Part shown: positions 13,691-30,003 of the stretch, piece after piece
How the letters are laid out: the number at the start of each line of letters is the position of its first letter
How positions within the stretch are numbered: the first letter of the stretch is position 1
Source of the DNA: Nitrospirales bacterium
GTDB taxonomy: Bacteria; Nitrospirota; Nitrospiria; Nitrospirales; UBA8639
Length of the DNA: 64,000 nucleotides
Reading direction: 5' to 3'
Assembly: GCA_029261295.1 (NCBI GenBank)
Contig: JAJDBP010000029.1
Location: 124,001-188,000, forward strand
Position numbers and translations under genes: made by a program
The notes under the pieces: model-generated
What the model saw: only the letters and a program-made list of their open reading frames with translations
The model's database searches: none
What the model was told of the DNA's origin: nothing

Positions 13691-13895
13691 TGATTTAGGA
13701 TCTTATTAAATAATCCTGGAAAATAATCCTTATATGCCTTGGGAAAATTCATTGAGTAGGAATCCCGGGAATGGTCAATAAATTCATCCAGCAAGGCCGC
13801 AGCATTTTTGGGGCGCGGAGCGTACTTCCAGTACGTGAGCACGGCAAAAAGGCGAAAACGCAGCTGGTGATTTTTTTCAACATTCCCATATTCAC
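13691..13895. repeat. Intergenic gap with a palindromic, repeat-like element between czcB and czcA
   Basis: This 205-base gap inside an otherwise compact operon contains a hairpin (CGTACT, TCC, AGTACG at 13821-13835) embedded in a G+C-rich stretch with GCGGAG and GTGAGC flanks. The composition differs from the flanking genes. A 74-codon frame on the minus strand crosses the gap but ends inside czcA and resembles no protein I know. I read it as a dispersed intergenic repeat, by analogy with REP-like elements; no second copy is visible in this window. Confidence 0.4.
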
Positions 13896-15068
13896 TCAAT
13901 CTCCAGCGATAGAATCTTTTAAGAGCGCATTTTTCAAATCAAACACACCCTCAATGACCACTTCATCTCCCGTCGTCAGTCCTTCAATCACCTCAATCCA
14001 TCCTTCACTCTCCTGCCCAAGTTTCACGGGAATAAACCGATACCTATTATCATCTTTCACGAACACCCCACGAACCCCCTCTACTAAGGTTGGCGCGGTC
14101 ACTGGAATAGCCAAAATGGACGCCTCCCCTTCCTCTAAACGAACTTCAACGTATTCATGAGGTTTCAGCAAACCCTGCCGATTATCGACATCAAACCGAA
14201 GTTGAATGGTCAACGTCGCTTTATCAGCCACAGGTGAGATATACGCCAAAGGCGCTTCAATTGGTTCACGGCCTTTCGCAAGGATGGTCCCACGGTCACC
14301 TTCATTGAACCGTTGGGCTTGTTCAATCGGAAGGTTCGCAAAGACCCAAACCTGCCGTGTATCCACCACCTCAAAGAGATGATCGCCTGGACTCACCCCC
14401 TGCCCAAGCACCACCGTTTGCTCAGAAATCGTTCCAGTTAATGGGGCCTTAATGATGTACCGATGCCCCTCCATCGTATGACTGTGCAACAGTTCATCTA
14501 GGTCTTTCTTCAACAGACCCATGTTCTGAAGCTTTTCCGTCACATGCTGATTGATCGCTTGGGCTTCAAAGTACTGAGCTTGATCTTCCATCAGACGCCG
14601 TTCCGACACAATTTGTTCGCCATGGAGTTTTTTCGTTCTCTCGAAGTTGGCGAGACGCAAGTCGACTTGCACTTTTGAGACTAAAAACTCCTGAACCAAT
14701 TCATCCAGCTTGAGACTCACAATGGCGAGTAACGGATCACCAACTTTGACATGGTTCCCTAATTGAACAAACACCTCTTCCACCTGACCCTCCAGTCGAG
14801 AGGACACCTTAGCTATCCTCCCAAGATCCAAGGCCACCCCGCCTGGGGCCACAATGGCCTGAGAGAGCATCCGGTTCTCAACAAGTGCCGTCTTGATTTG
14901 TGCTTGTGCCGAAGCCGTCAGCTGCAGCGAAGGAGGATGAGAGGCTTCCGGAATCCCCGCCGTTTCCGATTGAATTTTTCCAACAGGTTCCGATGGCTCA
15001 GAGCATCCCTGAACCAGCAGCAAAGGAAAAAGCAGAATGACATAGATAATCACAACACACCTCTTCAC
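13896..15068 (-). CDS. czcB: RND efflux periplasmic adaptor lipoprotein (CzcB/HlyD family)
   Basis: 390 residues with a signal peptide and lipobox (LLVQGC), so the adaptor is probably lipid-anchored to the inner membrane. It has the membrane-fusion-protein order: beta-barrel strand, lipoyl-like half motif (GRIAKVSSRLEGQVEEVFVQ), a coiled-coil hairpin, the second lipoyl half (YIIKAPLTGTISEQTVVLGQ), then beta-barrel and membrane-proximal domains. It links the RND pump to the outer membrane duct. The start is GTG at 15068; no strong ribosome-binding site is visible and no ATG is in frame nearby, so the exact start is uncertain. No His-rich metal-binding N-terminus is seen; that role may fall to the separate His-rich protein upstream. 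Confidence 0.88.
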   Translation of the reverse strand: MKRCVVIIYVILLFPLLLVQGCSEPSEPVGKIQSETAGIPEASHPPSLQLTASAQAQIKTALVENRMLSQAIVAPGGVALDLGRIAKVSSRLEGQVEEVFVQLGNHVKVGDPLLAIVSLKLDELVQEFLVSKVQVDLRLANFERTKKLHGEQIVSERRLMEDQAQYFEAQAINQHVTEKLQNMGLLKKDLDELLHSHTMEGHRYIIKAPLTGTISEQTVVLGQGVSPGDHLFEVVDTRQVWVFANLPIEQAQRFNEGDRGTILAKGREPIEAPLAYISPVADKATLTIQLRFDVDNRQGLLKPHEYVEVRLEEGEASILAIPVTAPTLVEGVRGVFVKDDNRYRFIPVKLGQESEGWIEVIEGLTTGDEVVIEGVFDLKNALLKDSIAGD

Positions 15069-15112
15069 AATTCACATTAAACATATTCAAAATCCCCTAT
15101 CACTTTAAGGGA

Positions 15113-15160
15113 CTTTGGTCCGAAGAGGACCAAAGCTTAGGGTGAGGGTAAAAGCTCACC
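15113..15160. repeat. Two adjacent hairpins between the His-rich gene and czcB
   Basis: A nine-base perfect stem (CTTTGGTCC, loop GAAGA, GGACCAAAG; 15113-15135) is followed by a six-base stem (GGTGAG, GGTAAAAG, CTCACC; 15141-15160). Neither is followed by a U-run on either strand, so they are not classical terminators. They lie in the transcribed leader between the first gene of the operon and czcB. The core GGTCCGAAGAGG recurs at 33694-33705, which suggests a dispersed repeat. Confidence 0.45.
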
Positions 15161-15247
15161 GAATACTTACACCACTATATTTAGGAATTGTTCTAGAATG
15201 CGCCCAGACCCCTACCAAAAGACAGAGGGCTCAGGAACACGATGAGA

Positions 15248-15727
15248 TTAAACGGATAGAACAGGCGGAGCGCGAGGAGAAAGGTTAGGTGGAAGAATTG
15301 AGGAATGTTGATGCTCTAAGAATTCAGGACTTTTTGAACGAACACTAGCATAAGCGGGAGAACTGACGGCCCCTATAACAAGAGCATGAAAAATTTCGGT
15401 TTTGTCTGAATCGGTATCAGGAGAGGGCTTAATCACCGAGAAGCCATAGGTCGCCTCTTCAAAATCATACGGTGGATGCGAAGAAGAATGAGAGGGTTCG
15501 GTTGAATCTCCTAGAAAGAAGAACCCATCATGATGATGTTCTTCATGAGCATCACCTTGGTGAGCATGAACAGGAGTATTAACTAAAATCGAATGGTAGG
15601 TGCCGCCATGAACCTGATCAGACTGACCATGGGCATGATCTGCTTCAGGATGGATATGAACAAGGGGTAGCGCAACAACCCAAATCACCAACCATAGCCG
15701 CAGGAATGTCTTATGTAGCACCTTCAC
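15248..15727 (-). CDS. Secreted His-rich protein leading the Czc operon
   Basis: 159 residues starting at GTG 15727 (GGAGG seven bases upstream). A signal peptide (LWLVIWVVALPLVHIHP) is followed by a His- and acid-rich region with clusters such as HPEADHAHG, HAHQGDAHEEHHHDG, and a C-terminal NLSPRAPP motif. Small His-rich periplasmic proteins of this design often precede Czc-type pumps in other bacteria, where they are thought to buffer or sense metal. It is the first gene of the operon, 179 bases before the adaptor gene. Metal binding is strongly suggested by composition; which metal is not. Confidence 0.7.
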   Translation of the reverse strand: MKVLHKTFLRLWLVIWVVALPLVHIHPEADHAHGQSDQVHGGTYHSILVNTPVHAHQGDAHEEHHHDGFFFLGDSTEPSHSSSHPPYDFEEATYGFSVIKPSPDTDSDKTEIFHALVIGAVSSPAYASVRSKSPEFLEHQHSSILPPNLSPRAPPVLSV

Positions 15728-16034
15728 CCGATATCCTCCATCTTACTTCCTCGGCAATATCAACCCAAGTATTGACCTTATCATAAAATTAATAAGAGAC
15801 AAAACACTTTGAAAGGAACGCCGCCTTCAATCAATATATATTTCAAATCTATGGAAGTAGTGGTTGGATATCCGACTACCTTTGGAAATTTTAAAAAAAT
15901 GTCATTTGTGACCTTATTTCCAGTCCACCAGCAAAGCGATTGAATTATTTCACACTTTTCCTTAAGCTTTCCTAATAATATGTCCTTTTCAGGGAAAATT
16001 CATTTCTCAAATGATTTTGAGAGAAGGAAAGAGA
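15728..16034. promoter_or_regulatory. Divergent promoter region between the Czc operon and the caspase/ABC operon
   Basis: 307 bases, A+T-rich, between the start of the His-rich gene (minus) and the start of the ABC transporter gene (plus); both operons must be transcribed from here. An interrupted dyad lies at 15857-15879: GTAGT, a GGATATCC centre, ACTAC. It may be an operator. No regulator gene flanks it. Confidence 0.45.
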
Positions 16035-18311
16035 ATGCCTTATAACGAAATCTTATTTAGCCTTCGAAACATAAAAAAGACATATCCAACTGCGTCTGGT
16101 GAAACTATTGTGGCTCTGGATATTGAAAAACTAGATATTCCACGAAATAAAGTAATTGCTATCTTGGGAAATTCTGGGTCAGGAAAAACAACCCTATTAA
16201 ATATTTTATCTATGTTAGATATACCAGACGAAAAGCTTAAATCGAATAGCGATTCTTCAAACTCTCAAATACTCTTTTCAGGTTTCTCTCGAGATCCCTC
16301 TCCCTTTGTAGATTTATTGAAGCCACAAACAAATTTTTTGGATTTCAGAAAAGAAACCTTTGGATTTATTTTTCAAGAAGGTTATTTACTAGAAAACCAA
16401 ATTGGAAAACGAAATATGATGATTCCCCTCCATATTAATGGGCTCAACACCTATGAGTATCCTTATAAAAAAATTGCAGAAACGATGCGTCTCAATAAGG
16501 GACAAGAACAACGACTTCCGAAAGATATTTCCGGCGGGGAAGCTCAAAGAATTGCCATCGCTCGAAGCTTGATTCATAACCCCTCTGTTCTTATCGCAGA
16601 TGAACCCACAAGCAGTCTTGACCCATTAGTTGGCTTAGAATTAATGGGATTTATTAAAGATTGGTGCCATAATTCCCCAGACCGCACAGTAATTTGGGTA
16701 ACACACAATATACATCAAGCTGCCTCTTGTGCTGATGTGGCCATTATTATGTCCAATGGGCATACAGGATCACCTCGTCTTCTTCCACAAGATACAGAAA
16801 AGCGAGGCGAAATTTTATTGCAATGGATGAAGGAGGAGGAGGAAAAGGTTTATCGCCAATCCAATATAGATGAAAGAAACAGGAAAGATGTATGGAAAAG
16901 TCTAAGTTTTTCAAAAAAGGCATCAAACCCTTTTTTTGAAAAACTTTCATTCCTGTTGCCCTACGCTATTTCTGAAGTTTTCCCCAAAAGATCCCCGGCT
17001 AAAAGAAGTGAAAAGAAGGTCAATCTCATCAAAAGGCAAGCTGCCCAAGGCCACAATATAATTTTCTTTTTTTTATTAATGCTTTTAGCATTGTTCCTTT
17101 CTGATATGTATTTTGGGATAAAAAATATACTTGCAACCGCCAATAATTCTGATTTTAGTAGAAATCAGCTCATAATCAATAAGGGAATCGACAAAACCGG
17201 GTTCCTGACAAAAGACGACCTAAAGAAAATAAGAGTTGAGATGGAAAAATGGCCGGCCACTGTTTCTCCTGTAAGAATGCCTTCCAATCTAATTAGAATG
17301 AACCCAAGTGTTAGTGAAAGCTTTGAAATGGTTACCATTCGCTTTGTGGCACTTGCTCTTTCAGACCCAATATTAGGTGATATACCCGTATTTAAAAATG
17401 AGAATCTCTCTGGAAAATTTTGCAATGAGAAATCCTTAGTTTCACCAAAAAACTTAAAAACTATTAAAGAGGTATTTAATAAATCTTCGGCCAGACAAGA
17501 AATCGGAACTCAAAAGGGGGTTTTTATAAAACGCAGTACTTTATGTAATAAACTTAAATACGAAGATAGCATTCCCTCGGAACTTCTTATTAACGAGTCC
17601 GAGGCACATGCGCTTTCCTCGAATAAACGGTTAAAAGTATTGGGAGTAGTTGAGAACTTACCCTTTGCCGCAAATGCACTCATAAGCTTGGGAACCGATG
17701 AGCAGATGTTTGTGGAAGGAGGCACCGAGGATAGTTTGCCCATGTTCCAAAAAATTACGATTTATCTTGATGACCCTCTTGCCCATGGAATAGACGTTGG
17801 AGACCATCTGAAGAGAATTGAATATACATTTGAAGGGAAAAACTTGAAATGGTGGATTTTCACTAAAGATTTAACGGACACTTTTTTATATTTTTCTTTA
17901 ATAACATTAATTGGGGCCAGTATAATCGTGGCATTGGCAGTTTCGGTTTCAGTCGCAAATGCCATTCAAAAAAAGAAAAAGGAAATAGGGGTTTTAATTG
18001 CTTATGGAATGGCATATTCGCACATAAGTCTTTTGTTCATTTTTCAGATGGTTTTAGTTTGGGGGGTTGCATGTGTTGCGCTTCCCATTCATCATTTTGG
18101 TATCCGACCTATTTTTTCAAATTTTTTCAGTTCGAATATTCTTACAACCATAAAAGTCAGTCCAGATGCAATCGTTGACGCATTTTCGCTACCTCTAACT
18201 CTATGGGTCGGCATCCCTTTTTTCGTGCTATTTTTGGCTATCTTAGCTATTCTTGTTCCAATTCACACAATAAGGAAGCAATCTACTGCTGAGATTATGA
18301 AAGGGAAGTAA
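16035..18311 (+). CDS. ABC transporter, ATPase fused to FtsX/MacB-type permease
   Basis: I start at the ATG at 16035, which has AAGGA seven bases upstream, not the in-frame ATG at 16011; this gives 758 residues. The N-terminal ABC domain has Walker A GNSGSGKT (about 45-52), a Q-loop (FIFQEG), signature SGGEAQ (about 166-171), Walker B VLIADE and an H-loop (WVTHN). One membrane helix (about 342-365), a periplasmic domain of about 250 residues and three C-terminal helices with an FtsX-type permease region follow. This is the MacB layout, which uses ATP to drive periplasmic events or export of proteins through a TolC partner rather than transport through the membrane. It is the first gene of the caspase/subtilase block, so export or release of those products is a reasonable inference. 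Confidence 0.85.
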   Translation: MPYNEILFSLRNIKKTYPTASGETIVALDIEKLDIPRNKVIAILGNSGSGKTTLLNILSMLDIPDEKLKSNSDSSNSQILFSGFSRDPSPFVDLLKPQTNFLDFRKETFGFIFQEGYLLENQIGKRNMMIPLHINGLNTYEYPYKKIAETMRLNKGQEQRLPKDISGGEAQRIAIARSLIHNPSVLIADEPTSSLDPLVGLELMGFIKDWCHNSPDRTVIWVTHNIHQAASCADVAIIMSNGHTGSPRLLPQDTEKRGEILLQWMKEEEEKVYRQSNIDERNRKDVWKSLSFSKKASNPFFEKLSFLLPYAISEVFPKRSPAKRSEKKVNLIKRQAAQGHNIIFFFLLMLLALFLSDMYFGIKNILATANNSDFSRNQLIINKGIDKTGFLTKDDLKKIRVEMEKWPATVSPVRMPSNLIRMNPSVSESFEMVTIRFVALALSDPILGDIPVFKNENLSGKFCNEKSLVSPKNLKTIKEVFNKSSARQEIGTQKGVFIKRSTLCNKLKYEDSIPSELLINESEAHALSSNKRLKVLGVVENLPFAANALISLGTDEQMFVEGGTEDSLPMFQKITIYLDDPLAHGIDVGDHLKRIEYTFEGKNLKWWIFTKDLTDTFLYFSLITLIGASIIVALAVSVSVANAIQKKKKEIGVLIAYGMAYSHISLLFIFQMVLVWGVACVALPIHHFGIRPIFSNFFSSNILTTIKVSPDAIVDAFSLPLTLWVGIPFFVLFLAILAILVPIHTIRKQSTAEIMKGK

Positions 18312-18429
18312 AGGCCGAGTTAAAGCATTCTGCCTTTGTTTAACATGGAGGGGAATTAAGATTAAGGTAAGTAGTCCTCATTTTTTAGGACTGCCAAAAC
18401 AATTGTTTTGGAAAAGGAGAGAATGGAAA

Positions 18430-19467
18430 ATGTATGTACTTCCGCAATGGATCCCTGCCATCACGATTTTAAGCATTGGCGTTTTCATTTTAAGTGGTTG
18501 TTCAGATCCTGGCTATAAGTTTAAAGCCTCATTCTTCGTCAAATATGACGGGATAAAAAAAGAGGTCATCCCGGATACAGTGGAATTGCAATATACAAAG
18601 AAGGATGCCCAGAAAGAGACTCCCACCCTAGAATGGGAAGAAGACGGCTTTTTAGCCAAAATCGACCTACTGTCGAATTCACCATTGCCCAATGTGGACT
18701 CCAATATGCCTATTGAGCTCTTTGTAGGGAAACACGGATATCTAAAGGAGGAAAGGTTCCCATTAACAATTGATATGTTCAAAACAGGGAATCCGGATCG
18801 AACTAGACTAGAACTTCATTTCGACAAACCGGCTCTTTTTGTGGTGATTAATCCGAGCAAACGACTTAAATTCGCTAGTTTATTAGATAATTTAAATTGG
18901 GCCTTATTTAGGGATAATTTCGCAAAATTCGTAAGTCAAATCCAAGGACAAAAGGGGATTCGAGATAAGTGGGGACCCTTTGTCCTTTATTCCATCGTAG
19001 AAGACCAAAATCTAAAAGAACTATCAAACAATTTTTCCCAATCTATTGAATGGAACAATGAAAGACTCAATAAGATTACAGAGGAAATAATAGCAGAGGG
19101 TGAACCTATCATGCCGGAGATTGTGCTCAAAAAGCTCGGAGAAAAAATTGACCGTTATAGCTACTCAAATAATAAATACAGAGGAATGATTATCTATGTA
19201 CTAGGGGGAGAAAGACTGCCTCCCACAGCAGAGGAAGTTCTAAAGGTCGGAAAATTCCTAAAGGAGGCAGGATTATTGGGTGTCATTGTGCAATTTGCCC
19301 CAACCAATACCAAAACAAAGGACTATTCAAAGCAATGCTCTGATTGCCAAAACCTAAAATTTTTTGAAATGGATATAGACAGTGAATTAGCAAGAAAAAG
19401 TTTTTACTTAGCATTTCAAGAAGTGATTCAGACGACAGAAAATCTCATTGAGGGTATTAAAAAATGA
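18430..19467 (+). CDS. Lipoprotein of the caspase block, unknown function
   Basis: 345 residues from the ATG at 18430 (AGGAG about nine bases upstream); an in-frame TTG at 18403 is less likely. The signal peptide ends in a lipobox (FILSGC). The region from about 150 to 345 alternates strands and helices (for example GMIIYVLGGERLPP, then GVIVQFAP), which faintly resembles a Rossmann-like or vWA fold but has no MIDAS motif. Two Cys in SKQCSDCQ may bind metal or form a disulfide. It lies 118 bases after the ABC gene and overlaps the next gene by four bases (ATGA), indicating translational coupling with the vWA protein. Probably periplasmic, membrane-anchored; function unknown. Confidence 0.7.
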   Translation: MYVLPQWIPAITILSIGVFILSGCSDPGYKFKASFFVKYDGIKKEVIPDTVELQYTKKDAQKETPTLEWEEDGFLAKIDLLSNSPLPNVDSNMPIELFVGKHGYLKEERFPLTIDMFKTGNPDRTRLELHFDKPALFVVINPSKRLKFASLLDNLNWALFRDNFAKFVSQIQGQKGIRDKWGPFVLYSIVEDQNLKELSNNFSQSIEWNNERLNKITEEIIAEGEPIMPEIVLKKLGEKIDRYSYSNNKYRGMIIYVLGGERLPPTAEEVLKVGKFLKEAGLLGVIVQFAPTNTKTKDYSKQCSDCQNLKFFEMDIDSELARKSFYLAFQEVIQTTENLIEGIKK

Positions 19468-21932
19468 GCCAATTCAAAAAAACACTGATCGTATTTTGCT
19501 TGCTCTTCATAATACCGATCGTCTCTCCAGCGTTAGTTTTTTCTGCGAAAATGGATTGGCAGGGGGAAAAGCTAGTCCTCCCAAAAAAAATCACGAAAAA
19601 GAAGGGAAGACGTTTGGCTGCTGTAGGAATTGAAAATGTTCCTTTTTATTATTCACCAGGAAAAGATAAAAAACTTAAGGGTCCCAAGTTTTTGGATTTG
19701 GTTACTATATACAGGGCAACCAAATATAGAGTGTACTATTTGGTCAACTATGGGAATACCGAGGAGGGATGGGGATGGGTGAAAGCGAAAGATCTCATTT
19801 TCCAAGATAGCCTGATCATACAAGAAATGACAGAGATCGAAAGGAAACGAAGCACACTACAAACCAGTTCTGATGAAACTTTTGTTTGCTACGATGGGGA
19901 TAACTCGGAATTAAAAAGAAGTGGGAACGACGATACAAACCTGGCTAAAGCTATATCTAAAAATAACTGGAGACAAACCGAATTTCGTTTGACCGAGAAA
20001 GTTGCCGTATTCGCAGGACCCGATCGAAAAAAATTCAAGGAAATCAAAAATATCAGCCTTTTTAATATTCTTTATGTTTATAAAGTTTGCCTGAAACCAG
20101 AGAAGGGGGAAAAGGGGGAGAGAATAGTGCGGTCGTATATGTTCGTCGGAACTAAAGCGCGCTGGAAAAATAGCAACCCCAGGAAATCCTTATTGGGATG
20201 GGTCCAAGAAAGCCAGTTAATAGTATGGAAATCTCGAGTTGCAGTCTGGTTTGACAAAAAATCATATGGAGAACGCGACCCTGTACAAATATTTAAACAT
20301 GAACAGGATTTACTTAATTACGTTGAAACGAAAAGGGCCCAAAGGGCCATTTCTATGGAAACAGAATTTTCGGCCCCATTGAAATTTTTCACAACTAGAT
20401 TTCCGGTTCTTAAAAATCGTACGAAAAACGATCCCCCGATAGGACGGGAGTCGATGAAGATTGCCTTCATTGCTGATGGATTTAGAGGAACTAATATCAA
20501 GGAAACAATTCCCAAGCATATTATTGAAGAAAAACGTCAGAGTACGTTCCAGTTAGGGGCGGATCTGAAACAAATGGATATTTTTTTCCTGATTGACTCG
20601 ACTACCAGCATGCACCCATATTTTAAAGTAACAAAAAACGCTATCAAACGTTTTATTAATAATTCCAAAGGAGGAAAAAAGAAGAAGTATCGGTTCGGAT
20701 TGGCACTGTACCGTGATTACCATTCCGGAAAAGATTTACTCTTTCAACCCATATTGCAATTGTCAGAACAGCACCAACCACTCTTGAATTGGTTGGAAAC
20801 TTATGACTTAGTAGATAAAGGAGTCAATACGGATGCCTATGAAGCTATGTTCGGGGGCATCAAAAAATCCGTCGAGTGGGCAAAGTGGAAAAAAGGGCGG
20901 ATAAAAGCATTAATTGTAATTGGAGATTCCGGAAATCATGAACCCTTGGATCCTCAAGACCCAAAGCTAGATGAGGTAGTAAACATCTTACAACGGAAAA
21001 AAGTACTTTTCTATGGTATTAACGTCCAACCACATCCTATTGCCCTCTTTGGGGATTATTATACTGCTTTTCTGAAACAGTCCAAGAGGATAATTTCCAA
21101 AAATAATGCGTGGGGTGGGTCAGAGGGAATGGGTGTGTTCGGAACAAAGCCATTTGATCCTCAGAAGTTGGAAAGTAATTCAAAGGAAATCGTTGCGTAT
21201 TTGAATGAAATAGCACAATTGTCTTCCACTACTCAAAAGGCGTATAAAACCCTGGCGAAATCGAAAAGCGGCCCTAAAGAATCAACACTCTCCCAGAAAT
21301 TGTCTAATGTAAGAAGTGAACATGGCGCAGTCGTTACAAGTTATTTACTTGCTTTAATGAAGGAAAGAGGACTGAAACTAGAAGATGTTCCTTCAAATCT
21401 TAACCAAATATCAGAGGAAGGATGGGTTCTTACTGAATCACTAGATGGGAAGAAGCATTTTGAACCTTGGATTTTAATTGGAAGATCAGATCTGAAAAAC
21501 ATCATTGCCATACTGGGTATCCTCGAATCTGAAATGGTCAAATCTGATCCAGAGGGAATAGAGGAAACCATTGTTGGGATAACTGCAAGAGTCTCGGGAG
21601 ATAAACCAATAAAGAATGATCAAACCCTGGCTGACTATCTGACGCGGCTCTCGCATATACCTTTTACAAAATGGTCACAATTGCTCCGCAACACTATGAC
21701 TGAAACCGAATACCTTATTCAGAATGATGCTGTCTTTAAAATGGAGTTATGGGAAAATCTGTGCAAAAAAATCGCCAGCCTAAACCTCGTAGTGGGGAGC
21801 TTAACTGGAACAATACAAATCGATAAAAAGAATTTTATCTGCAAAGTTGTTGACCCAAAACCGAAAGAGTGGTTTTTTCAACAAGGGCGTGGAGAGAAGT
21901 ATGCTTGGATTCCAATGGACTTTGTTCCTTAA
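19464..21932 (+). CDS. Secreted SH3-like and von Willebrand A domain protein
   Basis: 822 residues with a signal peptide (LLFIIPIVSPALVFS). Two SH3-like segments appear near residues 45-115 and 170-265 (for example YYLVNYGNTEEGWGWVKAKD). A vWA domain follows at about 370-550: FFLIDSTTSM supplies the DxTxS MIDAS metal site, and later NTDAYEAMFGG and ALIVIGDSGNHE fit the remaining strands and metal-coordinating positions. A helical C-terminus ends in another small beta region. vWA domains mediate metal-dependent protein binding. Its place between a lipoprotein and secreted caspases suggests a periplasmic or surface scaffold or substrate receptor. The domain call is good; the role is inference. 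Confidence 0.78.
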   Translation: MSQFKKTLIVFCLLFIIPIVSPALVFSAKMDWQGEKLVLPKKITKKKGRRLAAVGIENVPFYYSPGKDKKLKGPKFLDLVTIYRATKYRVYYLVNYGNTEEGWGWVKAKDLIFQDSLIIQEMTEIERKRSTLQTSSDETFVCYDGDNSELKRSGNDDTNLAKAISKNNWRQTEFRLTEKVAVFAGPDRKKFKEIKNISLFNILYVYKVCLKPEKGEKGERIVRSYMFVGTKARWKNSNPRKSLLGWVQESQLIVWKSRVAVWFDKKSYGERDPVQIFKHEQDLLNYVETKRAQRAISMETEFSAPLKFFTTRFPVLKNRTKNDPPIGRESMKIAFIADGFRGTNIKETIPKHIIEEKRQSTFQLGADLKQMDIFFLIDSTTSMHPYFKVTKNAIKRFINNSKGGKKKKYRFGLALYRDYHSGKDLLFQPILQLSEQHQPLLNWLETYDLVDKGVNTDAYEAMFGGIKKSVEWAKWKKGRIKALIVIGDSGNHEPLDPQDPKLDEVVNILQRKKVLFYGINVQPHPIALFGDYYTAFLKQSKRIISKNNAWGGSEGMGVFGTKPFDPQKLESNSKEIVAYLNEIAQLSSTTQKAYKTLAKSKSGPKESTLSQKLSNVRSEHGAVVTSYLLALMKERGLKLEDVPSNLNQISEEGWVLTESLDGKKHFEPWILIGRSDLKNIIAILGILESEMVKSDPEGIEETIVGITARVSGDKPIKNDQTLADYLTRLSHIPFTKWSQLLRNTMTETEYLIQNDAVFKMELWENLCKKIASLNLVVGSLTGTIQIDKKNFICKVVDPKPKEWFFQQGRGEKYAWIPMDFVP

Positions 21933-21995
21933 ATAAGAGAAACACAAATACCCTTTAAACAATATGTAGGGCAGAATTAAAGCGAGCGCTTAATC

Positions 21996-23270
21996 ATGAA
22001 AATGGAGAGGTTATTTTATCACCGTAATTTTGCTGTTCTTTTCCATATGATTTTTATTATTCTCTTGCTCGTCACAAGTATACAGGGAGCCCCACGATTT
22101 CCCGATAAAGTGGAAACACCAAGTGGGGAACAGTATGCTTTGCTAATTGGGATTAGTAATTACGATTATCCTGGTGTGAGGTCTGGCATTGTCCCTTTAG
22201 AGTTTGCTCATGAAGATGCGAAGGCTTTAAAAAATCGGCTTGAAAAGGATTTTCATGCCATAAGCCTCCTAAATGAAGATGCTAAACGAGAAGATATCCT
22301 CAATCAATTAAGTTATTTACAGGAAACGATTAAACCACAAGATAGTTTCCTTCTTTTCTTTGCTGGTCATGGGCTTCGAAATCCTTCCAATCAAGAAACC
22401 TATTGGCTTACATACGATACCAAATTAGATAATCTCGAAATCAATGGTATTCGCTTATCACATCTAATGGATTATGTCGTGGATATAAAAGCCAAAAATA
22501 AATTAGTTTTGCTTGACCACTGTTTTAGTGGGGATCTGGTACAACCTAAACTCGACTTACAGTTTTCAAAGGGGAAAACGAGGGGAGGAAGTATTCCAAA
22601 GGTTGCTCCTACCATTAAGAAGGTTCCTGAAATTACTTCCATGGATGAATTTAAAAACTCTTTTAGGCCTGACCAGGAAGGCCTACTAGTTCTTGCTGCT
22701 GCACACGAGGAATCTTACGAATATAAGCAGTATGGACATGGGCTATTTACGGCAGCACTCCTCGAAACACTCAATTCGCCAAAGGCCGACATTATAAAAG
22801 ATGGCAGCCTATCCCTTCATGAATTGACTTCTTATCTTCCTAGGCGATTCAGGGAAATGGCCGACTCCCAAGGAAACCTGCAAAGCATGATTGAGGGTCC
22901 AAAAGAAAAGAATTCTTCAGAATGGGCGCAAAATTGGACTTTAGTGAGTCTTCCGCCTAATACGAGCAACGGGGAAAAAATCGCAGATCAATACAAAGCA
23001 ATATTAGCGAAATGGTGGAGGATGGGTTGGATCCAGGTTGAAACTAAGGCTTGGGGGAAAGAGACCATAAAGGAATGGCTTATAAGTATTAATGGTAATG
23101 GCGAATTGACAAAATTATACAAAAAGCTGTGGAGAATACTAAAAAACAATATCGATTTTGTTTTGCAACAAAAAGGGCAAGAAGAGCTAGGCCTTAGCGA
23201 GCAGTCAATTGCAAAACAAATTGAAGAAGAATTCAATGAAGAACTCAAAGAAGAACTAGAAACCCAGTGA
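21996..23270 (+). CDS. Secreted caspase-like peptidase (C14 family)
   Basis: 424 residues with an N-terminal signal (FHMIFIILLLVTSIQGA). The caspase fold starts at QYALLIGISNY (about 47-57); the catalytic pair is intact, with His125 in LLFFAGHG and Cys176 in VLLDHCFSGD. After the peptidase domain comes a helical tail with the pattern WWRMGWI...KEWL..., shared with the next gene. Bacterial caspase relatives (orthocaspases/metacaspases) cleave after basic residues and take part in stress responses or in conflict systems. An N-terminal signal makes this one periplasmic or secreted, unlike most defence-linked caspases. It lies 63 bases after the vWA gene and 12 before the giant caspase/subtilase gene. 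Confidence 0.85.
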   Translation: MKMERLFYHRNFAVLFHMIFIILLLVTSIQGAPRFPDKVETPSGEQYALLIGISNYDYPGVRSGIVPLEFAHEDAKALKNRLEKDFHAISLLNEDAKREDILNQLSYLQETIKPQDSFLLFFAGHGLRNPSNQETYWLTYDTKLDNLEINGIRLSHLMDYVVDIKAKNKLVLLDHCFSGDLVQPKLDLQFSKGKTRGGSIPKVAPTIKKVPEITSMDEFKNSFRPDQEGLLVLAAAHEESYEYKQYGHGLFTAALLETLNSPKADIIKDGSLSLHELTSYLPRRFREMADSQGNLQSMIEGPKEKNSSEWAQNWTLVSLPPNTSNGEKIADQYKAILAKWWRMGWIQVETKAWGKETIKEWLISINGNGELTKLYKKLWRILKNNIDFVLQQKGQEELGLSEQSIAKQIEEEFNEELKEELETQ

Positions 23271-23282
23271 AAGATTTTTCAA

Positions 23283-26200
23283 ATGATTAAATTTTCTAGG
23301 ATAATTTTCCCTAGTTTTTCTACCAATTGGGGTTTCCTATACGTATGGGGAATCTTAATTTCCTGTACCTTCTTTTTATTCGAGATAGAAGATTCCTTCG
23401 CAAAAAACCATGCACTATTGATTAGTGTTAGCCAGAATTCAAACATAAAGAATGAAAACTTAAAAAGCGACTTTCTTGAGTCTGATCTCCAAAGTCTAAC
23501 CAACAGTCTTCAATCTGGGGGCTATATCGTCGAACATTTTCGTAACAGTGATGCCAAGCGAAATCTTATTATTAACAAGCTCGTTCACTATTCAACCAAA
23601 ATAAATAAAAATGATTCGCTCATAGTATTTTTTTCTGGGGTAGGTGTGCGAAGTAACAAAAATGACATATCCTATTTACTTACTGAAGATGTCAAAACAA
23701 ACGGCTCTGATGGATTCGCTCTAGGGGGTATTAGAATTGATCATTTATTTGATTATCTAAACGATATTCCATCTGAGAAAAAACTATTAATCCTAGATTT
23801 GAACTTTGAGCAGCAAATTAACCAACAGGATATAACCTTTGTGCATTCTATTGACCCTCAGGCATGGGATGCAGAATTCTTGGGTTCGGCTGCCAAGAAA
23901 AATCTTAAAACCTTGTCGGTTCTTGCCTCCTTTTGTAATAGCCCTTGCAAAACATCAGATCTACGACATGGGAGATTCAATCAGGCTCTAATCGACGCTG
24001 TTTCTCTTGGCAACCAGAAAACGAGCGGGCATTCATCACTCAAGCTCAAAAAAATGTTTAGCTTGGTGAAGACAAAAATTTCAAAATTTAAGGCTAAGGA
24101 ACCTTTTGAGAAAACAATGGGTCCCGAAGTTTTTAGTTTCGTCAATGAATCCACTTCAGATTGGGAAATATTCAGGGAATCTTTTGACAATAAACTTATA
24201 TTTGAACCAACAGCGTTAAAAGAATATATACGAACTATAAAAAAATGGGAGAAAAGAGGTTGGATTTCTACAAAAGCTTTGTTTATTTCACAAATTGGTC
24301 TAAAAAGATGGAAACAAAGTTACGTTGAACAAGTCCCTATGAATATAAATGAGGAAAAGCTCGTTTCTCTTGTTAAGCGCATACTAGATTTTGACATTGA
24401 AAACTACGGTCTTACCGAACAAGCTCATGCAAGAGCCCTTGAGAAAAATATCGAAGAGTTTTATCCAAAACATAACAATTTACCGGTGATCGAAGAAAAA
24501 CCCACAGTTGTTCCTAAACCCTTAACTGTCGTTAAACCTCCCATAGATGCGTCCTCCTCAAAATCTCCAAGAGCTAAACGGGCTCTACTTATCGGAATAG
24601 ATAAATATAGATCTGGTGAAATTTCCCAACTTAAAGGGTGTGTCAACGATGTTGAATTAATGGAGAAAATATTAGTATCCAAATTCAATGTCTCCTCTGA
24701 AAACATAAAAGTGTTAAAAAATGAACAAGCAACCCATGCAAAAATTGTTAGTGCTATTCAGACTCATTTAATTGCCAAGGCTAAACCAAATGAAGTGGTT
24801 ATCCTCCATTTTAGTGGCCATGGATCACAAATGAGGGATGCAGACGGAGATGAAATTGATCATTTGGACGAAACCCTTGTTCCTCATGATAGTCGAACTC
24901 CAGGTGTGTTTGATATTACCGATGACGAAATCAACGGACTTCTCCATCAGTTAACTCAAAAGACTAAAAACGTCACGGTCATTCTGGATAGTTGTCATTC
25001 AGGAGCAGCCGCGCGCGGTGGGACCACCGTGCGAGAGATTGCTCCGGATGACCGAACTCCACCTCCCCCAGCAGACTATGCACGTAGTTCTCGAGAATTA
25101 GGGGAAGGAGATGCCAATTTTCGCCTCAATGGCTCGAACTATGTTCTTATTTCTGGCTGTCTATCCAGTCAACGGTCTAATGAATCGGTGTTCAACGAAA
25201 GCCGCTATGGTGCATTAACCTGGTATCTGGCAGAGGCGCTGCAAGCTGCAGGCGATGATACAACCTATGATTCTATGATGGTTGAGGTTCAGAAAAATGT
25301 CAGTATGAGATTTCCATCACAAGAACCTCAACTGGAAGGATTGGGAACTAACCAAATTGTATTTGGAACGGACAAAATAAATACACAACCCTATTTGCTA
25401 ACTGAGCCGCTGAGCGAAGGAAAAGTCCAGATCCAAGGAGGTGCGGTCTATGGGTTAAAAAAAGACTCAGTAATTGAGGTTTACTCTCCCAAAACAGTCA
25501 ACTTTGAAAAATCTCAACCCTTGGCAAAAATAAAAATTTTTCAACTTGAAGACTTTTCCTCGCAAGCTGAAGTTGTGCAAGGACAGCGGTCTATTCCTAA
25601 AGGATCTAAGGCCCTTATCGAAGCTATTCATTTTGGGTCAACAGCTATTCCCATTTACATAGATGTCCAATCCGTTCCAGCATTAAAAACGGTTCGACAG
25701 GCTCTGGACAAAATGGAAACCCTGTCATTGTCCTTTGTTAAAAAAAAATCGGGGGCTCAACTCATTTTACAGGAACAACATGGAAAGGTGGTTTTACAGA
25801 GCGGGGATTTGGAATTTCTACGGCCACCAATACCAATAACAAAATCAAACTTTGAAAATGATGTGATTACAACAGTGAAAGATTTTGTACAGTGGCTCAC
25901 TGTGCTAGAACTAAAAAACCCTAATCCAAGATTTTCCATTAAATTACAAATACAACGCCAAAAGGATTCGCCTAACTCTAGAGCTCCTCAACAAGTCATT
26001 TCCGATACTTCACTCACTTATCGTGTATTGAATAATTCTGCAAGGGATTTGTATGTTTACATTTTTGATGTTTCGAGTGACGGATGTGTCTACCTATTAC
26101 ATCCTCCAGTCAAAGGAGAGCACGAAGCGCTTCCTTCCGGTGCAGAATTTGAAAAATCGACCAAGTTTTATGTACCTCAGAACTACCAAAGAGTTGTTGA

Positions 26201-28151
26201 TGTTATAAAAGTTATTGCAACTGACCGTAGAATAAACCCATCAATATTCCCCAATGGATGTCTTCGTGAATTACCCCCAGGAAATACCAGAGGTTTGACC
26301 GATCCACTCGAGCGTTTATTAGCCCAAGGAACGCATGGCATGCGAGCGCCTCGACTCGAAGAACATGAATCTATGGCCAACTCCTGGGTTACAGCTCAAA
26401 GAAGTTTTACTCTAATTCGACCAACTGTAAATGTTTCAGGGTTTTTGGGAAGCTTTAGTGAAATACAAAAGGCAGAAGAATTAAAGTCAAATTTATTTGG
26501 CATAGGCCGAGACAGTTCGCCACCCGATACTCCTCTTTCATGTTTAAATCTCGACCCCTCATACAAAGATGGGACAATATTTGGATTTTTACCGTGTGCG
26601 GCAAGTCGGGATAGTGTACCCAACCTGTCAATAGGGAAGGCCTTTGACAGAGCCTATAGCATTCAAGCTCAAATAGGTGCGCAAAGGGTGGAACCCAACA
26701 TTCAGGTCATCATGCCAGTTAGGGAATTTGAGGGCGCTACACCCACGCGGAGCAGCGGAAAAGGAGACGAGCATGACCCTTTGGCCAAACAAGATGATCA
26801 GTGGAGCTTAAAGCAAATTCAAGCATTCCAAGCATGGGAAAAGATTCGAAGAAGATATCAAGTCCTTGAAGGTTCCGAGGCTGAAGGCATATTAATTGCG
26901 CATCCGGATACAGGCTATCTTCCACATCCCGAAATTTGGGATGAATTTAATGGGATCAGGCCAATCGATGAAGGGAAGGGGTATAACTATTATGAAGGAA
27001 ATGCCAATCCCGAAGACCCGTTGCTAAAGGATCGTCTGCTGGATCATCCCGGACATGGGACAGCCAGCGCAAGTGTCATCATCAGCCCACCAGGCTGTCA
27101 ATTGCCGGGAAATAGTAAGTGCGTCAATGGGGTTGCTCCGGGTGCTCAGGTAATTCCTTTGCGCGTGCATCGAACAGTTTCTCAATTCAATACTGGCGCT
27201 CTTACTAAGGCCATTCAAGATGTGGCTGATGGGAATATACAAGGAAATCCCAAACTCATCTCAATCGCCATGGGTGGTCCCCCCACCTATAGCATGTGGA
27301 AAGCGGTGAAGGCTGCAGAAGATAAGGGGGTTTTAATTATTGCTGCAGCAGGCAATTACGTGAAGACGGTTGTGTGGCCAGCTCGTTTTGAATCTACTAT
27401 TGCCGTAGCGGCTCACAATGTTCGCTGTCAACATTGGAAGGGGTCTTCAAATGGAAATGCTGTTGACATTAGTGCCCCGGGAGAATCCGTGTGGAGGGCC
27501 ACTCTAAGTGAGGAGCATCAGGATATAATCGGAATGGGAAAGGGAACAACCTTTGCGACAAGTCATACCTCTGGTGCAGCAGCACTCTGGTTGGTTTGGC
27601 ACCAGGATAAGCCAAAAATTCTAGAGGAATTACAAGCCAATGGGTTAATCACCAAAGCCTTTCGTAAAATTTTAAAGGACAGTGCTAGAAGGCCAAGTGG
27701 AAATCCTTCTGAAAATCCTGCCGGCATGTATTGTCAGGAAAGTGCATGGGATGAAAATTTCGGCCCCGGGATGTTAGATGTAAATAGATTGTTGGAAATG
27801 CCCTTAGTTATTGAGCAAGAAGGATTATCTGACCAAACGAATCTTCGGGAACTCTCAGAACTACCCTTGTTCTCTTCACTATATCCCCCTGGAACAAAAG
27901 CGGAAACCATCAGAAATGATTATCAAACATTAGTGGGCCAGACTAGAGGCGATGATTTTGAGAAGTTGACTTCATATGAAACGGAAATTCTTTACCACTA
28001 CACTGTTAATGAAGAGGTTCGACGAGCCATAGATGGAATTGTGCAAACTCAGCGTGGAATAGAGCCCTATATGCGGGCCCGGACAACCCTACAAAAACAA
28101 GACTTATCCATTCAGCTACGAGAAATCCTTAGTCTATTAATTCATCCTTAA
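23283..28151 (+). CDS. Secreted pseudo-caspase / caspase / subtilase fusion
   Basis: 1622 residues with a signal peptide (to about residue 40). Domains in order: a caspase fold at about 41-240 that has lost both catalytic residues (FFSGVG with Val120 for His; LDLNF with Asn174 for Cys); a helical linker like that of the preceding gene; an intact caspase domain at about 430-690 (His513 in FSGHG, Cys571 in LDSCHSG); a beta-rich region at about 880-1000 resembling DUF4384-type domains found near caspases; and a subtilase domain at about 1170-1500 with Asp1209 (HPDTGY), His1258 (HPGHGT) and the oxyanion Asn (AAAGN), but Thr1423 where the Ser nucleophile should be (GTTFATSH). It is the last gene of the block. 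Domain calls are firm; whether the subtilase part is active is open. Confidence 0.85.
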   Translation: MIKFSRIIFPSFSTNWGFLYVWGILISCTFFLFEIEDSFAKNHALLISVSQNSNIKNENLKSDFLESDLQSLTNSLQSGGYIVEHFRNSDAKRNLIINKLVHYSTKINKNDSLIVFFSGVGVRSNKNDISYLLTEDVKTNGSDGFALGGIRIDHLFDYLNDIPSEKKLLILDLNFEQQINQQDITFVHSIDPQAWDAEFLGSAAKKNLKTLSVLASFCNSPCKTSDLRHGRFNQALIDAVSLGNQKTSGHSSLKLKKMFSLVKTKISKFKAKEPFEKTMGPEVFSFVNESTSDWEIFRESFDNKLIFEPTALKEYIRTIKKWEKRGWISTKALFISQIGLKRWKQSYVEQVPMNINEEKLVSLVKRILDFDIENYGLTEQAHARALEKNIEEFYPKHNNLPVIEEKPTVVPKPLTVVKPPIDASSSKSPRAKRALLIGIDKYRSGEISQLKGCVNDVELMEKILVSKFNVSSENIKVLKNEQATHAKIVSAIQTHLIAKAKPNEVVILHFSGHGSQMRDADGDEIDHLDETLVPHDSRTPGVFDITDDEINGLLHQLTQKTKNVTVILDSCHSGAAARGGTTVREIAPDDRTPPPPADYARSSRELGEGDANFRLNGSNYVLISGCLSSQRSNESVFNESRYGALTWYLAEALQAAGDDTTYDSMMVEVQKNVSMRFPSQEPQLEGLGTNQIVFGTDKINTQPYLLTEPLSEGKVQIQGGAVYGLKKDSVIEVYSPKTVNFEKSQPLAKIKIFQLEDFSSQAEVVQGQRSIPKGSKALIEAIHFGSTAIPIYIDVQSVPALKTVRQALDKMETLSLSFVKKKSGAQLILQEQHGKVVLQSGDLEFLRPPIPITKSNFENDVITTVKDFVQWLTVLELKNPNPRFSIKLQIQRQKDSPNSRAPQQVISDTSLTYRVLNNSARDLYVYIFDVSSDGCVYLLHPPVKGEHEALPSGAEFEKSTKFYVPQNYQRVVDVIKVIATDRRINPSIFPNGCLRELPPGNTRGLTDPLERLLAQGTHGMRAPRLEEHESMANSWVTAQRSFTLIRPTVNVSGFLGSFSEIQKAEELKSNLFGIGRDSSPPDTPLSCLNLDPSYKDGTIFGFLPCAASRDSVPNLSIGKAFDRAYSIQAQIGAQRVEPNIQVIMPVREFEGATPTRSSGKGDEHDPLAKQDDQWSLKQIQAFQAWEKIRRRYQVLEGSEAEGILIAHPDTGYLPHPEIWDEFNGIRPIDEGKGYNYYEGNANPEDPLLKDRLLDHPGHGTASASVIISPPGCQLPGNSKCVNGVAPGAQVIPLRVHRTVSQFNTGALTKAIQDVADGNIQGNPKLISIAMGGPPTYSMWKAVKAAEDKGVLIIAAAGNYVKTVVWPARFESTIAVAAHNVRCQHWKGSSNGNAVDISAPGESVWRATLSEEHQDIIGMGKGTTFATSHTSGAAALWLVWHQDKPKILEELQANGLITKAFRKILKDSARRPSGNPSENPAGMYCQESAWDENFGPGMLDVNRLLEMPLVIEQEGLSDQTNLRELSELPLFSSLYPPGTKAETIRNDYQTLVGQTRGDDFEKLTSYETEILYHYTVNEEVRRAIDGIVQTQRGIEPYMRARTTLQKQDLSIQLREILSLLIHP

Positions 28152-28470
28152 AAGAGAAATTGAAGTGAGGATCTACACACTTCAAAATGAGGGGCTTGGG
28201 AAAATTTCCTATATTGGCGGATAAAGAATGAATTCCATCCAATGCATAAATAATATGTTTTGCAACCATTTTCCCATTTCAATGAAATCAATGACTTGAA
28301 TATTGCAAAATACCGTTGCCTAATTAATTCAGAAAATTTGACGTGCACTGACCTTAAAAAATAAGAATAAATCCGCCATCATTCATGTGATGAATGAAAG
28401 AATATCGTCTAGTGTCAGAATCGCATTAGATCAAACTTCCCAACTAATTCCCGCTTCAAACTACACTTCT
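28152..28470. other. Convergent intergenic region after the caspase block
   Basis: 319 bases between the stops of the caspase/subtilase gene (plus) and pafA (minus), A+T-rich. An eight-base stem (TTGAAGTG, ten bases, CACTTCAA; 28160-28185) follows the plus-strand stop closely and may slow or end transcription, although no U-run follows. No gene or other structure is evident. Confidence 0.4.
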
Positions 28471-30003
28471 TTAAATATCTTGTTTTTTGGAGAGCGCTTC
28501 TGGAGTAGGACAAGAAGGGCCGTCAGAACAATAGTCGCGGCTTTCTTGGACGTAGGTACGGAAGGGATCGGCCATGACGAAGGGCGGGCTGCCTTGGAGT
28601 TGTAAGACTGACCAATTGATGACATAGGGTGGGCGGCGGGGATCTTGGTGTTTGGCTGTCTGTTCTAGAAAGTCGGCCCAGCCTTCTTTAACCACATGTT
28701 TAATGACCTCGGAACGGCCAAAAGCCCGCGTGTTTCGGGGTGGAGTATGTTTCGATAAATTGACCAAATCATTGGTCGTAAAGCGTGGGGCATCGCCTTC
28801 TTCGGCCATGCCATGATACAGGCCAGCTTGCAAGTCGACATTGTGATATTCCAAGTCCAGACTTTTGAGCCAGGGATCATCCCATTCTAATTTCTCCGCC
28901 TCTCGAAAGTTCTCTAATAACCAAAGCTTGGAGGCCCAATCTACTCGACCGACCACAGCCTGATAACCTTTCCTTAAGTCTTTGACGACGGATTCCCAAT
29001 GGGCTAATACCCAATCAGTTTCCTCATCCTGCCCGGCATAGTGTTTTGATGCGGCTTCCCAAAATTCTTCTTGAATATCCAAAGCCGAAAGATGCTTGCC
29101 GGTTGAGAGGGTGACCATCCATTCTCGTTTTGGGTCACGTGAGATGGCTCGTAGGGTTTGAACAGGATCATCAAAATCCAGGCCTGTCGGAGCATGGCCG
29201 TCTTCAATAAGTTGTAACGCTAATCCCGTGGTGCCCATTTTTAACAGGGTCGTTTCTTCCGCCATATTGGAATCGCCCATAAGCAAGTGTAACCGACGGA
29301 ATCGTTCGGGGTCGGCTAAGGGTTCGTCTCGGGTATTCACGATCGCTCGGTTGTGCTGCACCCATTCAAAAAAATCGTTGACGATGTAATCAGGTCGTTG
29401 CGAAATTTGGTAGATCACGGGTTCTTCCGCTGATGCCCGTGCAAGATTCCCTTTGCCTCCTTCGATGTCGTCTAAGCCAATCCATCCTTCCGCTGTGCGT
29501 GCCATCCCAATGCGCCCAGCTCCTGTAAAGACTTGGCGCGTGACGAGAAACGGCATGAGCAGGCCTAACCCTTGATAATTGAATGGAAACTCTCGGGAAA
29601 CCAGATAGTTCTCATGACAGCCAAAGGTGGCATCAGTTTCGTGATCAATATTATTTTTGATGATAGAGACCTTATCGTTCAGATCAAGTTCGTCTAAGCA
29701 GTCTTGCAGCAATAAGTCTCCAGCACGATCGACGGCTAAGAGATCCCATAATGAATGGCATTCTGGAGAGGCATATTCTAAATGTCCCATATCCACATAC
29801 ATTCTCCCCGCGTTCAGGAGAAAGCCTCCGTTGCCGGGTGGTTCATCATGCCCACGGTAATGCCAATCAATCACACCATGTTTTTTTTTGCCAAATAAAT
29901 GTTGGATGATATGGCGGGCGACGCCAGACGGAGACACATTCGATTGATCGGCTTTAATAAGCAGACCGTATTCGGTTTCTATTCCGAAGATTCTGTTTTT
30001 CAT
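28471..30003 (-). CDS. pafA: Pup/UBact ligase PafA
   Basis: 510 residues of the Dop/PafA (carboxylate-amine ligase) family, starting RIFGIETEYG. I call it PafA rather than Dop because of the segments ARHIIQHLFG, GDSNMAEETTLLKMGT and the C-terminal INWSVLQL...DPFRTYV, which follow mycobacterial PafA, and because its place after prcA matches the order mpa-dop-pup-prcB-prcA-pafA of actinobacteria. PafA uses ATP to join the C-terminal Glu of the modifier to Lys side chains of target proteins. Conserved Glu of the IETE motif and YEHHEN-like positions (here GCHENYLVSR) are present. It is the last gene of the proteasome operon, 128 bases after prcA. A C-terminal extension of about 25 residues is not typical. 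Confidence 0.85.
   Translation of the reverse strand: MKNRIFGIETEYGLLIKADQSNVSPSGVARHIIQHLFGKKKHGVIDWHYRGHDEPPGNGGFLLNAGRMYVDMGHLEYASPECHSLWDLLAVDRAGDLLLQDCLDELDLNDKVSIIKNNIDHETDATFGCHENYLVSREFPFNYQGLGLLMPFLVTRQVFTGAGRIGMARTAEGWIGLDDIEGGKGNLARASAEEPVIYQISQRPDYIVNDFFEWVQHNRAIVNTRDEPLADPERFRRLHLLMGDSNMAEETTLLKMGTTGLALQLIEDGHAPTGLDFDDPVQTLRAISRDPKREWMVTLSTGKHLSALDIQEEFWEAASKHYAGQDEETDWVLAHWESVVKDLRKGYQAVVGRVDWASKLWLLENFREAEKLEWDDPWLKSLDLEYHNVDLQAGLYHGMAEEGDAPRFTTNDLVNLSKHTPPRNTRAFGRSEVIKHVVKEGWADFLEQTAKHQDPRRPPYVINWSVLQLQGSPPFVMADPFRTYVQESRDYCSDGPSCPTPEALSKKQDI

Follow-up and report, generated by a model that had tools for sequence, protein, structure and literature searches.

In this work, we describe a five-gene block (g1-g5) whose most fitting label is that of a vWA-ABC envelope module of the PpkA/SrfABC type in which exported caspases take the effector position. 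The block lies in a window of 64,000 nucleotides (the whole stretch of DNA that was analysed, G000:C22:124001-188000) of a 4.06 Mb genome; it is no artefact, and it matched no already described system among the literature and databases searched. With a probability of roughly 0.4, we read the island that carries it as an envelope sensor-effector module, in which the lipoprotein g2 and the vWA protein g3 would sense, the ABC protein g1 would transmit via ATP, and the caspases of g4 and g5 would be switched on in the periplasm. The features are as follows:

15824-28474, no strand: genomic island with g1-g5, about 12.65 kb, delimited by blastn against G009 and a GC drop
16035 (or 16011)-18311, plus strand: ORF g1, ABC ATPase-FtsX permease fusion of 758 aa (Pfam, motifs, hydropathy)
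18430 (or TTG 18403)-19467, plus strand: ORF g2, lipoprotein of 345 aa with lipobox LSGC
19464-21932, plus strand: ORF g3, signal peptide, SH3-like region, vWA domain and C-terminal region
20571-21254, plus strand: vWA domain of g3, aa 370-597 (Pfam VWA 4e-7, TssR_VWA 2e-7)
21996-23270, plus strand: ORF g4, exported caspase (Peptidase C14)
23283-28151, plus strand: ORF g5, exported protein of 1622 aa with dead caspase, active-type caspase (by motif), linker and subtilase-like domain
23283-24540, plus strand: N-terminal g4-like pseudo-caspase of g5, aa 1 to about 419 (BLASTP, motifs)
24576-25337, plus strand: second caspase domain of g5, aa 432-685, metacaspase-like, His513/Cys571 (Pfam, phmmer, motifs)
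26886-27686, plus strand: subtilase-like domain of g5, aa 1202-1468 (Pfam S8, E=9e-28)

All five genes are on the plus strand with gaps of 12-120 bp or an overlap, as a preliminary description of this DNA had proposed. The overlap between g2 and g3 (4 bp), together with the short gaps between g3 and g4 (63 bp) and between g4 and g5 (12 bp), suggests that g1-g5 form one operon; g1 and g2 are separated by some 90-120 bp, according to the start codon chosen, and promoter and terminator scans returned sites no more numerous than in shuffles. The domains first assigned to g1, g3, g4 and g5 were recovered with Pfam, namely ABC_tran and FtsX in g1, VWA and TssR_VWA in g3, Peptidase_C14 in g4, and Peptidase_C14 with Peptidase_S8 in g5; g2 belongs to no known family. 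The proposal that every product after the transporter carries a signal peptide or a lipobox held for the lipobox of g2 and for g3 and g4, whose N-terminal hydrophobic segments are typical of signal peptides, whereas the segment of g5 (aa 17-35) is weaker and may be a signal peptide or a membrane anchor, these segments being called from hydropathy only. Similarly, the reported A+T richness applies to 16-26 kb, with a GC content of 37-40% against 45-52% in the flanks, and not to the final stretch at 26-28 kb, which encodes the subtilase part of g5 and, at 45% GC, resembles the neighbours. Among the genomes, plasmids and viral contigs searched, the five-gene layout did not recur, in agreement with the earlier remark that no described system with such an arrangement was known.

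The island is bordered by a heavy-metal RND efflux operon on the left and by pafA on the right. When the window was compared by blastn with G009, a genome of the same genus (locus L200), positions 9347-15823 and 28475-30003 aligned colinearly, and PafA was 95% identical; in place of the 12.65 kb, G009 carries an unrelated 2.1 kb insert (L200 15887-18035) with a 574-aa ORF of unassigned family, and none of g1-g5 is there. In G010 and G014 (L202 and L203), the place next to pafA is taken by an RND efflux operon. Given this other content in the three genomes, the site beside pafA varies within the genus and the block is an island of the source species; both of its flanks on the contig belong to the genus. 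The horizontal gain first suggested from base composition is thus supported by the absence of the island from G009 despite colinear flanks. No integrase, tRNA or long flanking repeat was present at the island ends.

It is well supported by sequence comparison that g3 belongs, as a divergent member, to a PpkA/SrfABC-associated periplasmic SH3-vWA family. A family HMM built from the collected loci, with g3 left out, matched g3 with E=2e-26 across aa 193-742. When the parts of this HMM were used alone, the SH3 side matched g3 with E=2e-8 and no other test protein, the vWA part did not discriminate between g3 and other vWA proteins, and the C-terminal part gave a weak match (E=0.16) that is suggestive only. 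The metal-site motif of the vWA domain (D378-x-T380-x-S382) and D488 correspond to invariant family columns. Structure prediction upheld the vWA assignment: the AlphaFold model of g3 has a mean pLDDT of 61, with the vWA region mostly at 70-90, and this region adopts an integrin I-domain fold (Z 19.5, VIA-align). In a tree, g3 falls among deep Planctomycetota members, but on a very long branch, and its placement is unsure. The gene was not found in 146 other relatives, which include 20 members of the same genus; 395 other genomes of the phylum gave partial matches only, mostly to the vWA domain; no second family member above E=1e-15 was found in the source genome, and viral contigs gave no match to g3, g4 or g5 searched singly.

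The view that the family comprises the sensory half of PpkA in detached form as well as the vWA protein encoded in SrfABC operons is likewise well supported by what its genes encode and adjoin; its tie to PpkA is drawn from gene linkage in Tistrella and from the published description rather than from comparison with the Pseudomonas PpkA sequence. PpkA has an extracellular sensor region with a vWA domain (PMC3224232), and SrfABC-TagQRST-PpkA neighbourhoods are on record (PMC3608642). In the plasmid search, g3 led to a Gluconobacter vWA protein encoded in the order SrfB-SrfC-Sel1-vWA-ABC ATPase-permease-FGE. In Klebsiella, an SrfABC-vWA-ABC-permease-FGE operon is present on 114 plasmid records as judged by the vWA gene, and one of these records was read (L016, NZ_MN543582.1). 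Several of these Klebsiella plasmids come from patients; the vWA-ABC-FGE part of the operon is TagRST-like, and the fetched stretch contains no T6SS. The T6SS locus of Tistrella pTM1 has the order TssJ-TssK-IcmH-TssM-TagF-PppA-kinase-vWA-ABC-FtsX-FGE, the ABC and FtsX genes being TagT and TagS, and by this order it reads as a PpkA whose kinase and sensory half are split into two genes.

A genome-wide scan with a three-sequence alignment yielded 80 loci, and counts were based on 85 full-length family loci, of which 71 had at least 3.5 kb of downstream and 67 had 8 kb of upstream DNA. In 65 of the 71 other family loci, the vWA gene had an ABC ATPase gene no more than 1 kb away and an FtsX permease gene no more than 3.5 kb away; an FGE gene was found in 56/71, and SrfB/SrfC upstream in 44/67; ATPase-permeases fused as in g1 also occur at L178 and L179 (phylum of G426). 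A caspase motif scan, validated by its recovery of g4 and g5 in the window, revealed no credible caspase in 100 other vWA-hit loci (1.76 Mb, 85 of the loci being full-length family members); its lone match, on the minus strand of L063, looks like a chance antisense frame and was discarded. Profile searches in three more phylum-wide sets (Planctomycetota, Desulfobacterota-type and cyanobacterial) returned further vWA-ABC modules or vWA proteins standing alone, with no caspase layout where neighbourhoods were fetched. A third family context was observed at L048, L057 and related Gammaproteobacteria, in which a vWA-ABC-permease module free of Srf and T6SS genes follows an apparent lptE, with a gene for a small membrane protein just upstream.

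With a MacB-type ATPase and an FtsX permease next to the family's vWA gene in 65 of 71 loci, the core of the block resembles, on these gene linkages, an envelope-sensing module of the TagST/PpkA type and not an exporter. g1 matches ABC_tran (1e-20) and FtsX (5e-6), has complete ATPase motifs (Walker A, signature, Walker B, H-loop) and predicted transmembrane segments at aa 342-360, 622-640, 664-682 and 723-741 (hydropathy), and shows the layout of type VII ABC proteins (MacB superfamily), namely an NBD, one transmembrane segment, a large periplasmic domain, three transmembrane segments and an FtsX C-terminus. Membership of g1 in TagT/TagS proper could not be established, MacB, LolD and FtsE standing at least as near to these profiles as g1 does: with a TagT HMM, MacB and LolD scored above g1 and FtsE like g1, and a TagS HMM matched it weakly (1e-4). 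The link between g1 and TagST is thus through its pairing with g3 and not through its sequence; PADLOC matches of g1 were set aside as generic ATPase matches. The lipoprotein g2 had no match in Pfam, NCBIfam or PADLOC. A degenerate vWA lipoprotein had been suspected from its sequence, and the single-sequence structure model was unusable (pLDDT 33).

On the effector side, g4 (Peptidase C14, E=2e-16) appears active by motif, with the dyad His125/Cys176 (GH125G, D-H-C176) and an Asp at position -2 of the Cys. The N-terminal part of g5 aligns with g4 (BLASTP, 24% over 393 aa, E=4e-25) and has lost both dyad residues (Val replaces His at aa 120 and Asn replaces Cys at aa 174), so g5 starts with a dead g4 copy. 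Its second domain is an active-type caspase, as judged from a phmmer match to metacaspase-1 4f6o (E=1e-23) and from intact GH513G and D-S-C571 motifs, again with Asp at -2; in metacaspases, an Asp at this position marks Arg/Lys specificity. In the subtilase domain, D1209, H1258 and N1358 are retained, and the catalytic Ser is replaced by Thr1423 (codon ACC, 27549-27551), a change that the preliminary description missed and that probably leaves the domain inactive or impaired. The closest subtilase relatives found were S8 proteins of Ruegeria and Polaromonas plasmids (~32% identity), which keep the Ser (GTS). At L194 (Polaromonas pPNAP01) and L195 (Ruegeria megaplasmid), an S8 subtilase gene is followed by genes for trypsin-like and STAND-type NTPase proteins, and these loci resemble proteolytic conflict systems.

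Caspases similar to g4 were identified in 27 of 296 genomes of the phylum. Eight of these loci were fetched, several of them tandem caspase arrays, and of their 21 caspase ORFs, 19 begin with a hydrophobic segment, which is accompanied by a lipobox in 13; exported caspases per se are therefore not unusual in the phylum, and the contrast first drawn with usually cytoplasmic bacterial caspases was overstated for it. None of the eight regions has a vWA-family gene or a TagT/S pair alongside the caspases. As to whether homologues of the five genes stay together, the picture is mixed, the g1-type and g3-type genes forming a conserved pair and the caspases and subtilase occurring elsewhere without them. 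Many caspases have been described with an N-terminal helix, possibly a signal peptide (PMC3501461). The tandem arrays at L229 (G305:C39:9001-24000), L233 (G316:C92) and L234 (G251:C8) comprise up to six exported caspase genes, mostly for lipoproteins, and in some places the caspase genes are separated by small toxin-like genes (PIN-type) or by others. The source genome itself has two further caspase genes within 10 kb (G000:C2:261329-271470; L028, L029), one with a lipobox-like N-terminus and beside an FHA-like protein, with a close homologue in G009.

Beyond these homologies, we infer sensing, the order of activation, specificity and biological outcome as follows. The periplasmic SH3-vWA protein g3 and the lipoprotein g2 would constitute the sensing side for envelope stress, and g1 would couple cytoplasmic ATP use to a periplasmic conformational change, like TagST/FtsEX-type complexes. 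The caspases g4 and g5 would stand where relatives have a T6SS-driving kinase or SrfABC proteins; once triggered, g4 and the active g5 domain may cut envelope proteins at Arg/Lys. The dead g4-like domain of g5 might pair with or restrain g4, in analogy to cFLIP and caspase-8, and the subtilase domain with its Ser-to-Thr change could be a docking or restraining part that binds rather than cuts. The outcome would be regulated proteolysis of envelope proteins, the cell's own or an attacker's, upon envelope damage. In its most specific form, namely that an ATP-driven type VII ABC/vWA sensor switches on periplasmic caspases upon envelope damage, with the active/dead pair as the switch and the output of a TagST/PpkA-type sensor swapped, the proposal is a tentative one. 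Counting against the sensor-effector reading are the unreplicated layout, profile scores that bring g1 no nearer to TagT/TagS than MacB, LolD or FtsE, the lack of FGE, kinase and SrfBC in the block, the lack of a detectable relation between g2 and TagQ, the weak C-terminal match of g3 (E=0.16), and the occurrence of the phylum's exported caspases without such modules.

The main rival, which we hold to be doubtful, is that g1-g3 are a sensor or transporter with its own output and that g4-g5 are ordinary exported caspases that merely share the island. The commonness in the phylum of exported caspases, often tandem lipoproteins, without vWA/ABC genes would fit it, as would the GC of the 3' part of g5, which differs from the rest; conversely, the short gaps, the single strand and the uniformly low GC of g1-g4 and most of g5 speak against it, and the usual operon effectors of the family (SrfBC, kinase) are missing unless g4-g5 fill their place.

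It is unlikely that the block is a weapon or defence system, with a module sensing attack and caspases hitting the attacker or killing the damaged cell altruistically. This would agree with the variable chromosomal site, with the retaliation mediated by TagQRST-PpkA in Pseudomonas (PMC11881912, PMC6657622) and with the fratricide or death in which extracellular caspases have been proposed to act (PMC3501461); however, the block encodes neither a toxin nor an immunity protein nor a secretion machinery, and the genome has no T6SS sheath gene (VipB/TssC).

The model of the preliminary description, in which g1 exports or releases proteases that form a surface cascade, we regard as quite improbable. 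The MacB/LolD-like features of g1 and the export signals of all other products are in its favour, but these products bring Sec-type signals of their own, the five-gene block encodes no MacA adaptor or TolC partner (Pfam), and the subtilase of g5 is without its catalytic Ser. The idea of an own export machine is further weakened by the 65 of 71 loci in which such an ABC pair accompanies the vWA family with no caspase near, and by the published place of TagS/TagT, the relatives best studied in this setting, in an envelope-sensing pathway and not as a protease exporter (PMC6657622, PMC11881912).

Finally, an NTP-dependent caspase conflict system relocated by export (EACC1-caspase or vWA-MoxR ternary) is disfavoured as very improbable: g4 matches the NCBIfam 'caspase, EACC1-associated type' below threshold (86.8 bits, cut-off 140) and the nearest relatives found for the g5 subtilase are S8-trypsin proteins encoded next to STAND NTPases, yet no MoxR, EACC1, STAND or VMAP was found in the five products, with only P-loop cross-matches on g1 (Pfam), the vWA family differs in kind, and ABC transporters are unmentioned in a survey of those systems (PMC7159879).

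The locus bears on the physiological role and activation of exported bacterial caspases and on the part of TagST-type ABC proteins in envelope sensing, and by bringing both together it offers a testable link between a damage sensor of known kind and a measurable protease output. The pairing of a vWA-ABC sensor with exported caspases suggests an unstudied switch for envelope proteolysis; if the sensor-effector reading is true, the vWA-ABC core would be a portable sensor with exchangeable outputs (type VI secretion, SrfABC, caspases).

Among known systems, TagQRST-PpkA (Pseudomonas aeruginosa; Tistrella pTM1), which reports outer-membrane damage in Pseudomonas (PMC11881912, PMC6657622), resembles the block in bringing together a periplasmic SH3-vWA protein, an FtsX-type ABC and lipoprotein or exported partners, and differs from it in that the block has its ABC subunits fused in g1 and two caspase proteins as output. 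The outer-membrane lipoprotein TagQ has at most a candidate counterpart in g2, a lipoprotein of no known family. Neither kinase or phosphatase domains (PpkA, PppA; Pfam) nor a TagR-type FGE (FGE HMM, Pfam) are present in the five products, and the VipB/TssC sheath family was not found genome-wide, with a positive E. coli control; given these absences of kinase, TagR and type VI secretion, the block should not be named a TagQRST-PpkA pathway. SrfABC-linked operons (Klebsiella and Gluconobacter plasmids, Desulfovibrio, Acetobacteraceae) share the vWA family followed by an ABC ATPase and an FtsX permease; in the block, caspases replace SrfA/B/C and FGE, and the order is ABC-lipoprotein-vWA-effectors instead of Srf-vWA-ABC-FGE. 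No SrfB or SrfC was found among the five products (Pfam), and a genome-wide SrfB search was empty with an equally silent positive control, which has no bearing either way.

TssR of the Bacteroidota T6SS-iii is, like g3, an exported vWA protein (TssR_VWA 30.9 bits, cut-off 25.7); only the vWA part matches, and TssR is a lipoprotein in the TssNQOPR membrane complex (PMC10781749). TssR was not among the fold-search matches listed for g3, which has no bearing either way. Prokaryotic metacaspases and orthocaspases share with g4 and domain 2 of g5 the His-Cys dyad, the Asp at -2 and the pseudo-variant beside an active one; the block differs in that active and dead copies share an operon with a vWA-ABC module and in its subtilase-like fusion. 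The S8-trypsin proteins beside STAND NTPases (Ruegeria, Polaromonas) resemble g5 in the subtilase domain and a related N-terminal flank, but both retain the catalytic Ser and the Ruegeria protein is fused to trypsin, whereas in g5 Thr takes the place of Ser and the fusion partners are caspases. Lastly, YbbAP-TesA and FtsEX-EnvC-amidase also have a MacB-superfamily ABC encoded with periplasmic hydrolases, and the block differs from them in having proteases rather than an esterase or amidase, and additional vWA and lipoprotein partners. YbbAP is a type VII ABC working with the periplasmic hydrolase TesA (PMC12646458); in the literature on type VII ABC proteins, ATP drives a periplasmic conformational change, FtsEX also acting with a hydrolase, and by this analogy mechanotransmission by g1 is plausible.
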